A stretch of DNA of 25,111 nucleotides from a virus. Below are positions 2,801 to 11,335 of this stretch, one piece after another. The notes under the pieces are model-generated. The model saw only the letters and a list, made by a program, of their open reading frames with translations. It did not search any database and was not told the origin of the DNA. The DNA is taken from positions 1-25,111 of IMG/VR virus record IMGVR_UViG_3300032235_000334; one strand, given 5' to 3'. The translations under genes and the position numbers were made by a program. Numbering within the stretch: the first letter of the stretch is position 1; each line of letters starts with the position of its first letter.

Positions 2801-3070
2801 TTACTCCAGTTCCAATTCTAGCTGAGTAGAATATATATAATTCTGTGCTACTACAGCTTCTGCTTCAAGCAGTAGAGGTATTAATGATCCTACCTCATCT
2901 GCTTGAAACGAAAATCCAGTTTTTGTTGGATACCACTGCCCAGTATCCCCATCCATAGCGTACTCTCTTATGTGTAAGTACAGTATGTCTCGAAATTCAT
3001 TTATAGTAACTTTTACTGCATTTCCGTTATTCTTATGAAACGCAGTACCAAAGTCATAACTAGAACTCAT
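2801..3070 (-). CDS. Small conserved-looking phage protein, unknown
   Basis: An 89-residue acidic protein with alternating beta-like stretches (VKVTINEFRDILYLHIREY; TGQWYPTKTGFSFQADEV) and a C-terminal helix ending in a run of Glu and Leu. No signal peptide, membrane segment or known catalytic motif is visible. The pattern of a strand-rich front and the phrase PTKTGFSFQADEV is reminiscent of small ssDNA-binding PC4-type proteins (transcriptional coactivator p15), where a similar 'KKG..L' strand occurs, but this is a weak resemblance. It starts directly after the glycosyltransferase at 3071 and reads into the HTH-like gene. It is a gene because of the tight packing and codon use. Confidence 0.6.
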   Translation of the reverse strand: MSSSYDFGTAFHKNNGNAVKVTINEFRDILYLHIREYAMDGDTGQWYPTKTGFSFQADEVGSLIPLLLEAEAVVAQNYIYSTQLELELE

Positions 3071-6769: not shown

Positions 6770-7807
6770 TTACTTATTAAATAGTTTATCTGTCCACGTT
6801 TTAGGAGTAGACTCGTTTATAATTTCTAAATTCAAGTGGTAGTTAAAGTCTCTACGCGCACTATTTTTAATCCACAATACAGTATCTCTAACTGTATCTT
6901 CTGTACTGTTATTAGTAACATATTCTAGTAACTGTCTAGCCTTTTCTGTACTAACCCAAGCATTTTGAACCTCTCTCGGTCTTCCAGGCAAATGGATTAT
7001 ATCTGGTTGAGTATTAAAATACTTAGACACTACCGAAGCTAATTCTTTTATAGATATTTCAGAACCATCATCTGGTCCTATATTAAATACGCTTGTATTT
7101 TCTATATCATTGTGTTTATTTACTAGCGTTACGTAAGCTCTAACACAGTCATCTACGTGTGAGAAACTACGTTGCTGATCGCCGTCACCGTATATATAAA
7201 TTGGTTTTTCGTGCAGTATTCTATTTGCAAAAATACTCATTACATTTCTGAATGGGTCTGAGTAGCATTGATGCGGTCCGCACACATTATGAGGGATTAC
7301 ATGAAATACTTTTAATCCATGAATTTCACTAAGCAGATTAAGTTGTTGTTCTGCGTGTAGCTTAGCCATGCCATAAGGATCAATAGGATTCGGTACTGTG
7401 TCTTCTTTAAATGGCGCAGCAGCATTTCCGTATCTAGCCATTGAACTGGTATTTATAAATAACTTAGCTCCAGCAGCTATAGCAGCACTTGCTACAGAAA
7501 TAGTACCTGCATAAATGTTTTCTACGATTGTTTTAGGAGAAAAAACGCTCAATCCTTCATGTGCTAGCGCTGCACAATGAATAACTATATCTGGATTGTA
7601 GTTATCAAATACTTCTTTAAGAGCTTTATTATCAAGTATATCTACTTTAAAATAATAGAAGTTAGAATTACCGCTTGGCATGTTACTTTCGTACCCGCCA
7701 ATTAAGTTATCTATTCCAATTACTTTATAGCCCATAGATAGAAATTTATTAACTAAGTGACTACCTATAAGTCCAGCACTACCAGTAATTAATATTGTAT
7801 CAAACAT
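6770..7807 (-). CDS. NAD-dependent sugar epimerase/dehydratase (extended SDR)
   Basis: Acts on a nucleotide sugar: UDP-glucose 4-epimerase-like, or a related dehydratase. In 345 residues the Rossmann motif TGSAGLIGS is at 8-16, an acidic end of strand two at VIGIDNL, Ser at 121-122 (INTSSMARYGN), and the catalytic YxxxK as YGMAK (145-149). A RSFSHVDDCVRAY segment further on matches the substrate-binding part of GalE/WbpP-like enzymes, and GRPREV fits the C-terminal region. The length is normal for the family. The start overlaps the stop of the upstream gene by eight bases. Which epimer is made cannot be read. Confidence 0.92.
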   Translation of the reverse strand: MFDTILITGSAGLIGSHLVNKFLSMGYKVIGIDNLIGGYESNMPSGNSNFYYFKVDILDNKALKEVFDNYNPDIVIHCAALAHEGLSVFSPKTIVENIYAGTISVASAAIAAGAKLFINTSSMARYGNAAAPFKEDTVPNPIDPYGMAKLHAEQQLNLLSEIHGLKVFHVIPHNVCGPHQCYSDPFRNVMSIFANRILHEKPIYIYGDGDQQRSFSHVDDCVRAYVTLVNKHNDIENTSVFNIGPDDGSEISIKELASVVSKYFNTQPDIIHLPGRPREVQNAWVSTEKARQLLEYVTNNSTEDTVRDTVLWIKNSARRDFNYHLNLEIINESTPKTWTDKLFNK

Positions 7808-9183: not shown

Positions 9184-9537
9184 TCAGAATGATACTTCTG
9201 CAGTTACAACTAATTCGCTGTAATCTAGATTGTCATCAAGCTGAATCTCAGCATTGAAGTTGAGGTACTGTACCTGAGCAGGAGCATAATTAACTCCTAG
9301 ATCAATACCTTCAAAATGTACATCTTCTAGATCCACAGCAGTAAAAGCATATAGCTTTACTTCGTCGTTAACTTGATAGTTAAGTTCACCTTCGTAAACT
9401 GCAACTGTATCTTCTGCTTCTACGTAATAATCAAGTGTTACTGTGCTATCAAAAGCCCAGCCGTTACCTAGTTCTACAGCTAGAGCTGGTGAAGCTAGAG
9501 CTACGAGTGCGGCAGTGGTTAATAGAATTTTTTTCAT
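9184..9537 (-). CDS. Secreted small beta-rich outer-membrane-type protein
   Basis: A 117-residue protein with a textbook signal peptide: MKK, a hydrophobic core LLTTAALVALA, and cleavage after SPALA (residue 20). The mature part is short alternating beta strands (WAFDSTVTLDYYVEA, VKLYAFTAVDLEDV, LDYSELVVTAEVSF) and ends in phenylalanine, as outer-membrane barrels do to be recognised by BAM. It is too short for a full eight-strand barrel, so it may be a half-barrel, a multimer or a periplasmic beta protein. The start at 9537 has AAGGATAT seven bases upstream. A longer in-frame start adds ten residues before the signal peptide and is less likely. Superinfection exclusion or envelope change is a guess. 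Confidence 0.85.
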   Translation of the reverse strand: MKKILLTTAALVALASPALAVELGNGWAFDSTVTLDYYVEAEDTVAVYEGELNYQVNDEVKLYAFTAVDLEDVHFEGIDLGVNYAPAQVQYLNFNAEIQLDDNLDYSELVVTAEVSF

Positions 9538-9553
9538 TTGGATATCCTTATGT

Positions 9554-9799
9554 TTATTTTTTATCATTTACAAAAGAGTATAAAGCACTAGCACGAGCTA
9601 TTACCTCAGCTTCTGTATATGTTTTAGGCGCAGTTACAGTATTTAGATAGTTAAGAACTTCAGATACTGGAACTTCAGCAGACTTTAACAGTTCTGCTTT
9701 TTGTTCTTCAACTTTTTCAGAAGAACGTCGTTCGGCTTCAAGCATTTCTTGAGCCATCTTTAAAACGTCTAATCTAATTTCAAAAGGCGTTTTATTCAT
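9554..9799 (-). CDS. Small helical phage protein
   Basis: An 81-residue charged, alpha-helical protein: EIRLDVLKMAQEMLEAERR then a coiled-coil-like KVEEQKAELLKSA, and a second domain around VSEVLNYLNTVTAPKTYTEAEVIARASALYSFV. No catalytic motif. The start overlaps the VWA gene stop by eight bases (ATGAATAA). Proteins of this make-up are common in marine T4-like phages, but the function is not known to me. Confidence 0.65.
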   Translation of the reverse strand: MNKTPFEIRLDVLKMAQEMLEAERRSSEKVEEQKAELLKSAEVPVSEVLNYLNTVTAPKTYTEAEVIARASALYSFVNDKK

Positions 9800-10631
9800 T
9801 GTCTTTGCCTACAGCTGCTGCACGCTCGCCCTTAGTAAAGGTAGATGCTGCATAAGCCATAGACGTTGGAGTACCAGATGCATAAGCACCTTTTAGTGAG
9901 TTAGTCATACGACTTGCAGCACGCATAGTTGCGTCTGTATTTTTTGTGTCAAACTGAATTGTGTTGCTTACACTAAAACCTAGAGCATGTCCTGCTTGGA
10001 AGGCATCAATGTTAGCTCCTAGGAATAGGAATCCCCAGTTTTTACCTTCAGCTTTTTCTACCATTGCTTTGATAGATGTATTATCAAATGTACGAGAAGC
10101 GTTTTCTTCGCCGTCAGTCAGCACATTAATAATTACTGATTCGCGTTCAGCTTTTTTCTTTTCAGAAAGAAGATTGTTTACCTTCATTAAAACTCCGCCC
10201 ATAGCATCTAGCAGGTTTGTGTTACCTGAAGGATTATATGTTACGTGAGTTAGTGGTTCTACGGTTTGCACGTCCTGACGGTCGAATACACACTTAACAT
10301 CATATCCGTTAAATTTGTACAGCGATACTACAGTGGAGATACCGTTAGTGTTTGCGTCTGCTTTTTGAGACGCTAGATATTCGTTAAAGCCAGAGATAGT
10401 AATGTCTCGGCATGATTGCATGGATGAAGAGTCATCTAGCAGAAAAACTACATGAGATAGTTTTGGGTTTTTACCAGCGCGCTTAGGTTTAAAAGCTGCG
10501 GCTAAATCTACAGTTTGTGTAGTTATATAAGTATGTGGCCGTGTGTAAAAGCCGTGTAGCGACTGAGTACCGGATTGAATTCCTGATCCGCCTACTACGG
10601 ATTGTACTTGTGATGTAATACGTCTTGTCAT
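9792..10631 (-). CDS. VWA-domain protein with MIDAS motif
   Basis: A 279-residue protein with a von Willebrand factor A fold. The metal-ion-dependent adhesion site DDSSS is at 66-70 (HVVFLLDDSSSM), followed by a helix with ISGFNEYLASQ, and a later VLTDGEENAS matching the third MIDAS loop. Residues 1-50 are low in structure (GGSGIQSGTQ) and the tail carries Ala/Thr/Ser repeats. VWA proteins in phages are found in metabolic and capsid-associated contexts, where they bind partners through a metal. The start at 10631 (MTRRITS) has AAAGGAA just upstream. A longer in-frame ATG at 10688 lies inside the tmRNA and is rejected. Confidence 0.88.
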   Translation of the reverse strand: MTRRITSQVQSVVGGSGIQSGTQSLHGFYTRPHTYITTQTVDLAAAFKPKRAGKNPKLSHVVFLLDDSSSMQSCRDITISGFNEYLASQKADANTNGISTVVSLYKFNGYDVKCVFDRQDVQTVEPLTHVTYNPSGNTNLLDAMGGVLMKVNNLLSEKKKAERESVIINVLTDGEENASRTFDNTSIKAMVEKAEGKNWGFLFLGANIDAFQAGHALGFSVSNTIQFDTKNTDATMRAASRMTNSLKGAYASGTPTSMAYAASTFTKGERAAAVGKDNE

Positions 10632-10658
10632 ATATATTCCTTTGTGATGTGATGTGTA

Positions 10659-10688
10659 ATGGCCCGTTCTGTTTCCCGGTGGAGCCAT
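10659..10688 (-). other. Hairpin after the tmRNA tag frame
   Basis: Seven-base stem between 10659-10665 and 10682-10688 (one G-T pair), 12 bases after the tag stop codon. It fits a stable 3' end or P5-like helix of the coding RNA and keeps the region from being the start of the VWA gene. Confidence 0.6.
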
Positions 10689-10700
10689 ACCGATAGTAAA

Positions 10701-10745
10701 TCAAGCTGCTAGAGCTAGAGATACTGGAGCAAAGTTATCGTTTGC
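10701..10745 (-). other. tmRNA tag reading frame
   Basis: Resume codon GCA at 10745-10743, then 14 codons ending TGA at 10703-10701, reading ANDNFAPVSLALAA. The ANDNF start matches alphaproteobacterial tags such as the Caulobacter one, and the LALAA end is a ClpXP/ClpAP degron. An A-rich stretch (ACAACAAACAAAC) precedes the resume codon, as expected. Confidence 0.92.
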
Positions 10746-10832
10746 GTTTGTTTGTTGTCTTGCGGTTATCAGTCGCTTGCTCACTGGCCCCTGGTTTCCT
10801 CATGCTCAACATGTCGATCCTATTTCGAGCCC

Positions 10833-10981
10833 ATCAAAGATACACTGTTATCCTTCTATCGCCGACCACGAGCACCGCAGCATTACCTGTAAAGTCGTGA
10901 CACGTCTAACCAGCGAAAGTGTTTGTAACAGCCATTCCGCACAACCAGTAAACCCGTTGTAGGTCTGAGCCAGTGTATCTA
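10833..10981 (-). other. tmRNA intervening segment removed during processing
   Basis: Between the acceptor CCA and the coding-piece 5' end lie 149 bases. Their flanks are complementary: 10838-10847 with 10971-10980, a perfect ten-base stem that would stack under the acceptor stem and bring both cut sites together. The inner 123 bases are GC-richer than the genome and have no evident reading frame. No known motif is recognised in them. Confidence 0.8.
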
Positions 10982-11034
10982 TGGTGGACCCGCTGGGTAC
11001 CGCCCCCAGGTCCATGTTGCATCCGATTTACGTA
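10982..11034 (-). other. tmRNA acceptor piece
   Basis: Contains the P2 3' strand (11013-11022), a T arm with five-base stem (11005-11009 with 10993-10997) and a seven-base loop GGCGGUA, then the 3' acceptor strand and CCA at 10984-10982. The loop is unlike the standard TTC loop but matches what I recall of alphaproteobacterial tmRNAs. The 5' end is a guess. Confidence 0.85.
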
Positions 11035-11041
11035 ATCAGAG

Positions 11042-11335
11042 CTATTTTATAATTAGTTGATCTAGATGAACATATCCAGTAACTTTAATGTTTTCATCTG
11101 AAACACAAGTAAGCCAGACATGATTGCCTGTGTCATCTTCTACTGATGCATGATCAATTACAAATGTATGTCCGCGATAAGCATCATAATACGGAGCATA
11201 AGGTTCAAGAAAAACCTTATCGTGAAAATGATATTGCGTTTTAGCAATCATATTAATAGCTGCGCGTAACATAGTAAAATCTATATCATCAGTTTCTATA
11301 AGCACATATTGCTCAGTTAAGGTAGTTTTGTTCAA
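11042..11335 (-). CDS. Small unknown protein, TTG start
   Basis: A 97-residue protein without recognised domain. The C-terminal half is strand-rich (YRGHTFVIDHASVE, HVWLTCVSDENIKVTGYVHLDQLII), which may be an SH3-like or OB-like barrel. The start is TTG at 11335. AAGGA lies eight bases before it, which supports this start over the next in-frame ATG 20 codons later. It overlaps the upstream gene by 23 bases. The tmRNA acceptor piece begins within a few bases of its stop, so transcription of this gene should run into the tmRNA. Confidence 0.6.
   Translation of the reverse strand: MNKTTLTEQYVLIETDDIDFTMLRAAINMIAKTQYHFHDKVFLEPYAPYYDAYRGHTFVIDHASVEDDTGNHVWLTCVSDENIKVTGYVHLDQLIIK

Follow-up and report, generated by a model that had tools for sequence, protein, structure and literature searches.

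A predicted permuted tmRNA gene on a phage genome fragment and its exchangeable intervening segment

The tmRNA locus and its neighborhood

The DNA analyzed here (the window) is an IMG/VR record of 25,111 bases, which encodes an NAD-dependent DNA ligase, a UvdE-like endonuclease, a phosphate-binding-type protein, sugar-modifying enzymes, and a VWA-domain protein. On the minus strand, at about positions 11043–10658, lies a complete gene for a predicted permuted (two-piece) tmRNA, which is detected by two Rfam models and by ARAGORN (Table 1). RF04321 (tmRNA_permuted) matches over the full length of the model at positions 11043–10701 of the minus strand (99.1 bits, E 1.8e-18, cut-off 47), and RF01849 (alpha_tmRNA) matches at positions 11082–10658 of the same strand (90.5 bits, E 1.2e-23, cut-off 50); each score exceeds the cut-off of its family. 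The ARAGORN call at 10610–11074 is also of the permuted type (tmRNA*); it places the start of the tag (ARQQTN...) too early, and the true frame begins at a conserved GCA.

Models, ARAGORN, and sequence agree on a permuted order, in which the T arm, the acceptor 3' strand, and CCA precede the intervening segment (IVS), and the acceptor 5' strand and the coding region follow it. P2, as read from the single sequence, joins the two pieces by 9 pairs and a 2-nt bulge, and the tag frame leads from an alanine resume codon to a stop, with ALAA as the proteolytic end of the tag. An earlier note on this DNA had claimed a complete permuted two-piece tmRNA on a phage genome at 10655–11034, which is about right for its extent (the strand, which is minus, had been left out), and the elements that it listed (G3-U, T arm, CCA, P2, a ten-base closing stem, and a 14-residue tag) are all present. 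The search with the alpha_tmRNA covariance model that it had proposed as a check gives the significant RF01849 match, which also bears out the alphaproteobacterial type of the RNA. Judged by its sequence, this phage gene specifies a permuted tmRNA in two pieces, of the type found in Alphaproteobacteria. A one-piece tmRNA of the mycobacteriophage type was rejected because the gene order is permuted, not standard, according to Rfam and ARAGORN, and an RNA reduced to the tRNA-like domain, as in phage DS6A, because the tag coding region is present.

Table 1. Features of the tmRNA locus, in positions of the window
Feature	Positions	Strand	Basis
Whole permuted tmRNA precursor (acceptor piece, IVS, coding piece)	10658–11043	−	RF04321, RF01849, ARAGORN
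5' hairpin of acceptor piece, CUGAUU-ACGUA-AAUCGG	11023–11039	−	Sequence; GUAGUGAUGAUAUUCACUGA at equivalent position in relatives
P2 strand of acceptor piece, AUGCAACAU, AUGC+AACAU	11014–11022	−	Pairs with 10812–10802
T arm, CUGGG GGCGGUA CCCAG	10993–11009	−	Rfam, sequence
Acceptor 3' strand CGGGUCC (10992–10986) and encoded ACCA (10985–10982)	10982–10992	−	7 pairs with 10832–10826, G3-U70 kept
IVS (149 nt), exchangeable cassette, removal predicted	10833–10981	−	Shuffled-level identity to L123 IVS; mature RNA ~100% identical
5' strand of IVS closing stem, AGAUACACUG	10971–10980	−	10 pairs; covariation over 83 distinct viral IVS
3' strand of IVS closing stem, CAGUGUAUCU	10838–10847	−	10 pairs; covariation
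UUGAU bracket that links closing stem and acceptor 5' strand; pairable with ACCA except C74	10833–10837	−	
Acceptor 5' strand GGGCUCG, predicted 5' end of coding piece	10826–10832	−	Rfam, sequence
Conserved D-loop-like segment, AAAUAGGAUCGAC	10813–10825	−	Rfam, relatives
P2 strand of coding piece, AUGUUGAGCAU, AUGUU-GA-GCAU	10802–10812	−	Sequence
Tag frame GCA...UGA, ANDNFAPVSLALAA + stop (14 residues, 10745–10704; stop, 10703–10701)	10701–10745	−	
Putative 3' pseudoknot-like element, CGGUAUGGCUCCACCGGGAAACAGAACGGGCCAU	10659–10692	−	Matches RF01849 end; paired changes by eye in alignment
VWA-domain protein gene, directly downstream, RBS AAAGGA	9792–10631	−	PF00092 5.5e-5; phrog_7371 3e-45

The VWA gene starts ~27 bases past the tmRNA and has its own ribosome-binding site. 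A permuted tmRNA, recognized by motifs, ARAGORN, Rfam, and the combination of acceptor, T arm, and tag, lies upstream of the VWA gene in 26 of 26 relatives, which are those examined with upstream DNA from 29 viral relatives of the VWA protein; because several of these loci are near-identical copies of one virus, they represent fewer than 26 independent cases. The VWA-like gene of Myrna has no annotated tmRNA within 15 kb, so the link between the two genes may be one of synteny only, and a functional pair that extends beyond the lineage of the window was rejected on this result. A T4-like affiliation of the lineage is likely, though not proven, because the sole megablast match of a 195-kb relative (L124) to named phages is a gene for a single-stranded-DNA-binding protein of Synechococcus phages and cyanophages.

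In most relatives of the VWA lineage, TTGACA-17-TATAAATA, or at least TATAAATA, is found just 5' of the tmRNA and could be usable both as a sigma-70 and as a T4-late-like promoter; the loci with TTGACA-17-TATAAATA in this position include L124, L125, L128–L132, L136, and L139. This arrangement is absent upstream of the tmRNA in the window and in its relative L123, and a scan for consensus promoters finds nothing just upstream of the tmRNA in the window, which suggests that the gene may be transcribed there by read-through. At the 5' end of its tmRNA gene, L123 has ~720 extra bases (6773–7493; window position 11045) with a 239-residue frame. Elsewhere in the window, a nearly perfect 15-base inverted repeat (2866–2905) lies within an 89-residue frame at 2801–3070.

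Closing helix, exchange, and content of the intervening segment

The IVS, which extends from CCA to the acceptor 5' strand, has a median length of 86 nt in 104 distinct viral sequences versus 30.5 nt in 106 bacterial ones; many of those in small-genome bacteria have 5–18 nt. Viral IVS have a closing helix, which usually starts 0–1 nt past CCA and ends 4–5 nt before the acceptor strand. When the IVS are located by anchors independent of this helix, 92–94% of the cells of the viral alignment are paired in the exact register, compared with 27–63% when the strands are slid by 1–3 columns. Positions 1–10 are paired in 68–79 of 83 distinct viral IVS (shuffle means, 36–67), each of them above the maximum of 500 shuffles, and all four Watson-Crick pair types occur at several positions. 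A weaker stem of the same kind is present in bacterial IVS (about 65% in register versus about 40% slid). In these alignments, the closing helix is fixed in register and shows sweeping covariation; the claim of the earlier note that the pairings exceed chance is upheld for this stem by compensatory changes, which preserve it in relatives. The last 4 nt are usually UGAU (U at −1 in 79, G at −3 in 75, and U at −4 in 80 of the 83 viral IVS), and this tetranucleotide can pair with ACCA at all positions but C74, in which case the end of the precursor would form a nearly continuous helix.

The sequence enclosed by the closing stem is exchanged among phages. The mature RNAs of the window and L123 are identical (1.00 over 210 compared bases), whereas the identity of their IVS cores (0.45) is close to that of shuffled sequences (0.43); because their flanking genes are 80–91% alike, this difference points to replacement rather than drift. 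The opposite is the case for L123 and L130, where the identity is 0.67 for the mature RNA and 0.88 for the IVS core. IVS of the L123 type occur also in L274, L276, and L277, which have other tags, and thus in four different tmRNAs in all beside that of L123. As the similarities of mature RNA and IVS disagree among loci, the content of the IVS moves independently of the surrounding tmRNA. Going by these comparisons, the IVS is an exchangeable cassette in a phage lineage that keeps the closing stem, a feature that the earlier note had overlooked.

The alignment of L123-type IVS supports five helices with 26 pairs, and 99.2% of its cells are paired. Seven pairs are changed on both sides, with 13 such cells versus 5.4 in shuffles; one of the five helices is invariant and therefore uninformative. 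A cassette of this type outside tmRNA was rejected, as the respective model (R1) gave just weak matches beyond the known members.

Other viruses have small reading frames inside the IVS. The strongest example is a frame of 62 residues, found in L044, L050, L067, and L011, in which the changes between L044 and L011 are distributed 17/7/27 over the three codon positions (of 55 each), suggesting constraint at the protein level; a free-standing homolog (L058:7262–7092) is 68% identical. Relatives of this frame were found at 80 loci, 22 of them inside a tmRNA IVS (L430–L461) with several different tags; the other 58 failed the within-IVS test. All 22 nested copies have the arrangement ACCA-UAAGGACAyUGA-(0–5 nt)-AUG, with AAGGA in the closing stem, and in all of them the UGAU bracket supplies the stop codon, UGA. 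Because AAGGA sits in the closing stem, it may be hidden by the folding of the precursor, and the expression of a small protein gene nested in this manner would be linked to tmRNA processing. Further IVS frames with homologs elsewhere in viral contigs are present in L073 (free in L055:3437–3382), L085/L039 (free in L138:25–88), and L057 (free in L060:248–293). Homologs of the L057 and L044 frames also occur as free genes immediately 5' of the tmRNA, in L277 and L274, respectively.

The IVS of the window has no match in Rfam and none by blastn in phages; an exact 20-mer of it occurs in no viral contig, and a 16-mer occurs in unrelated contexts only. A protein gene was rejected, because the sole candidate, a 55-aa frame from the T-arm region, has no convincing start site, and so was a strongly folded RNA (z 0.55 versus shuffles).

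Relation to other phage and bacterial tmRNAs

Cluster C mycobacteriophages have a tmRNA that is phage-borne like that of the window but consists of one piece in the standard gene order. Phages with ssrA are listed in PMC4131195. Permuted tmRNAs of phages, of which the earlier note could cite none, are already known: phage Melnitz has a two-piece tmRNA (Buchholz 2022, PMC9004378), and 53 of the 133 unique phage tmRNA structures in that study, mostly marine or aquatic, were called two-piece. A permuted ssrA is annotated in roseophage DSS3_MAL1, and ARAGORN and Rfam detect unannotated permuted tmRNAs in MD18 (L003), DSS3P8 (L151), vB_RpoS-V10 (L153), RcXuper (L152), and RcRudolph (L154). A pattern scan of viral contigs yielded at least 119 stretches, and most of those listed hold a full permuted tmRNA. 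In view of these published, annotated, and unannotated cases, the gene in the window belongs to a known kind and is in itself not new. At about 140 viral loci, acceptor, T arm, and tag are intact, and the listed acceptor pairs include G3-U70; because acceptor pairing was part of the rule by which the sampled loci were searched, the conservation of the acceptor is partly built in.

The tmRNAs of the six roseophages resemble that of the window in their permuted order, long IVS, and closing stem but differ in that, in five genomes of ~150 kb, they lie within the tRNA region, and no adjoining VWA gene is annotated or matched. MD18, DSS3P8, RcXuper, and RcRudolph are isolates obtained on laboratory-grown Rhodobacterales (MD18 on Phaeobacter inhibens, DSS3P8 on Ruegeria pomeroyi, RcXuper on Rhodobacter capsulatus), and their tmRNAs have the same architecture as that of the window. 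In RcRudolph, the permuted tmRNA overlaps an annotated hypothetical protein. Shortly 5' of the tmRNA, four roseophages have a GOLLD RNA (RF02032; L002:5394–5857, L003:5237–5704, L151:2211–2644, and L153:2206–2639), and in two of these four, a tRNA-Arg lies inside the GOLLD RNA. Melnitz, Mosig, and related marine phages (PMC9004378) have in common with the window that a permuted tmRNA is carried by tailed phages of aquatic bacteria. That study describes a glutamine riboswitch that accompanies ssrA; the window has no Rfam match to this riboswitch at E values up to 1.

With the permuted tmRNAs of Alphaproteobacteria (RF01849/RF04321; two-piece in Caulobacter), the RNA of the window shares the gene order, the G3-U70 acceptor, the T arm, the encoded CCA, the D-loop-like segment, P2, an ANDN- tag, and the pseudoknot-like 3' end. 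It differs in being phage-borne, in its IVS of 149 nt, in its longer closing stem, and in clustering with viral RNAs only; its acceptor has GGGC, in contrast to GGGG in nearly all sampled bacteria.

When the mature parts of permuted tmRNAs, 108 viral and 107 bacterial, are compared in a tree (~255 columns), one edge separates the viral from the bacterial RNAs (0 misplaced, support 0.999); most of the sequences were chosen by one pattern, the taxa are not exhaustive, and the viral RNAs have on average a lower G+C content. When 20 bacterial RNAs were added, mostly from small alphaproteobacterial genomes (127 bacterial RNAs in total), one of them (L395) falls among the viruses (support 0.851), and the other 126 remain apart. 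L395 is the second, lower-scoring tmRNA copy of its genome and is located in a phage region (L429, around 9,300–10,100), between GroES-like, head, and terminase genes; since genes for the terminase large subunit and the major head protein adjoin it, L395 is phage-borne.

The separation on one edge makes the phage tmRNAs look like a phage lineage and not like a fresh host capture. Taken as a whole, the results turn the observation that phages sometimes carry a tmRNA into a testable picture of a phage-owned lineage, with a removable middle of the precursor in which genes can be housed. In PMC9004378, phage RNAs cluster with host lineages, whereas they form a phage-only group in the larger sample studied here; the disagreement may be due to sampling. 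As they group apart from the bacterial RNAs, phage RNAs say little about the present host. The alphaproteobacterial host proposed in the earlier note is unproven by the type of the RNA, because Melnitz, which has an alpha-type RNA, infects the gammaproteobacterial OM43 clade (PMC9004378).

Proposed function and alternative explanations

Trans-translation by tmRNA frees stuck ribosomes, and because truncated or incomplete mRNAs are expected to abound late in infection, the phage would, on general grounds, benefit from it. The reading to which we assign a probability of about 0.85 is that the phage gene in the window is functional and gives rise to a permuted tmRNA of two pieces. The gene would be transcribed as a single RNA, in which the T-arm/acceptor piece ending in CCA is followed by the IVS and the coding piece, and a single long hairpin would result from the acceptor stem, P2, and the closing stem of this precursor. 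Cuts by tRNA-processing enzymes of the host would fall before GGGCUCG and past CCA, and the IVS would be discarded or released, leaving the two mature pieces paired. The tmRNA would be charged by the AlaRS of the host (G3-U70) and brought to stalled ribosomes by the host SmpB, and the phage tag would direct the broken product to the proteases of the host. In the phage lineage, the IVS would have turned into a slot with exchanged content and a preserved closing stem.

A search of 10 related records, which are not known to be complete, revealed no SmpB gene, and a phage-encoded SmpB was rejected on its absence from these records; given that the window is a 25-kb fragment and the related records may be incomplete, such a gene elsewhere in the phage genome is conceivable. 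The idea of the earlier note that the phage rescues or tags on its own terms is plausible as regards rescue and tagging, but the process would rely on the SmpB of the host.

That tmRNA genes often serve as integration sites and that some prophages carry fragments of them (PMC9004378) would fit the recent capture and passive carriage of a host gene or an attachment-site fragment, as would the alphaproteobacterial type of the RNA. Such a capture is nevertheless very improbable, because the gene is complete, the viral RNAs are apart from the 127 bacterial ones bar one phage-borne copy, the position beside the VWA gene is kept in all 26 relatives, and the mature RNA is preserved but the IVS inside it is not. 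Hardly more credible is a role as a decoy, by which SmpB would be titrated or the trans-translation of the host blocked, in the manner of the tRNA-like-domain-only RNA of mycobacteriophage DS6A. PMC11915505 and PMC4131195 report that DS6A has such a form and that a form of this kind inhibits tmRNA, but the coding piece, the resume codon, the stop codon, and the ALAA end are intact and conserved in the tmRNA considered here.

Concerning the IVS, we see an even chance that it serves as a cargo slot of phage tmRNAs, where structured RNAs or small protein genes (which have their ribosome-binding site in the closing stem and their stop codon in the bracket) would be swapped by recombination, leaving the mature tmRNA untouched, and would be made and released with it; the IVS of the window would be one such cargo. 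Somewhat less probable is that it represents unselected filler, shaped by fast drift and chance recombination, and that the closing stem alone matters, for processing. The IVS of the window, which has no match and folds no better than its shuffles, and the short IVS of bacteria are in line with filler, but the covarying structure of the L123 type, the genes under protein-level constraint, of which 22 of 80 copies are inside an IVS, and the complete dissimilarity of the IVS in the window and L123 despite similar flanking genes, which indicates replacement, argue against it. If the IVS is indeed a cargo slot, the removable middle of a precursor would carry genes, tmRNA loci would provide phages with a compact expression platform, and the IVS, so far ignored, would deserve annotation.

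An exchangeable IVS that is closed by a helix and holds RNA or protein cargo is new as far as the literature search shows; the search found no treatment of permuted tmRNAs together with their intervening segment, and an older account of the closing stem is possible. The nearest precedents, in the accessible part of PMC11915505, are a tRNA-Ala gene in the IVS of one permuted tmRNA and a repetitive element in that of another, which resemble the phage IVS in having extra content but are presented there as single bacterial or nominally archaeal cases, without small protein genes or exchanged RNA modules.

The tags themselves vary in length. Unusually long ones of 30 and 24 residues, such as ANDNASNVYSFVDFGSLKNTYVNEDFALAA, occur in phages (L006, L007, L087; L044, L050, L067), and some alphaproteobacterial tmRNAs (L164, L171, L196, L213, L250, L405, L409, L412) encode long tags in which an ANDN/NDN motif occurs twice in tandem.
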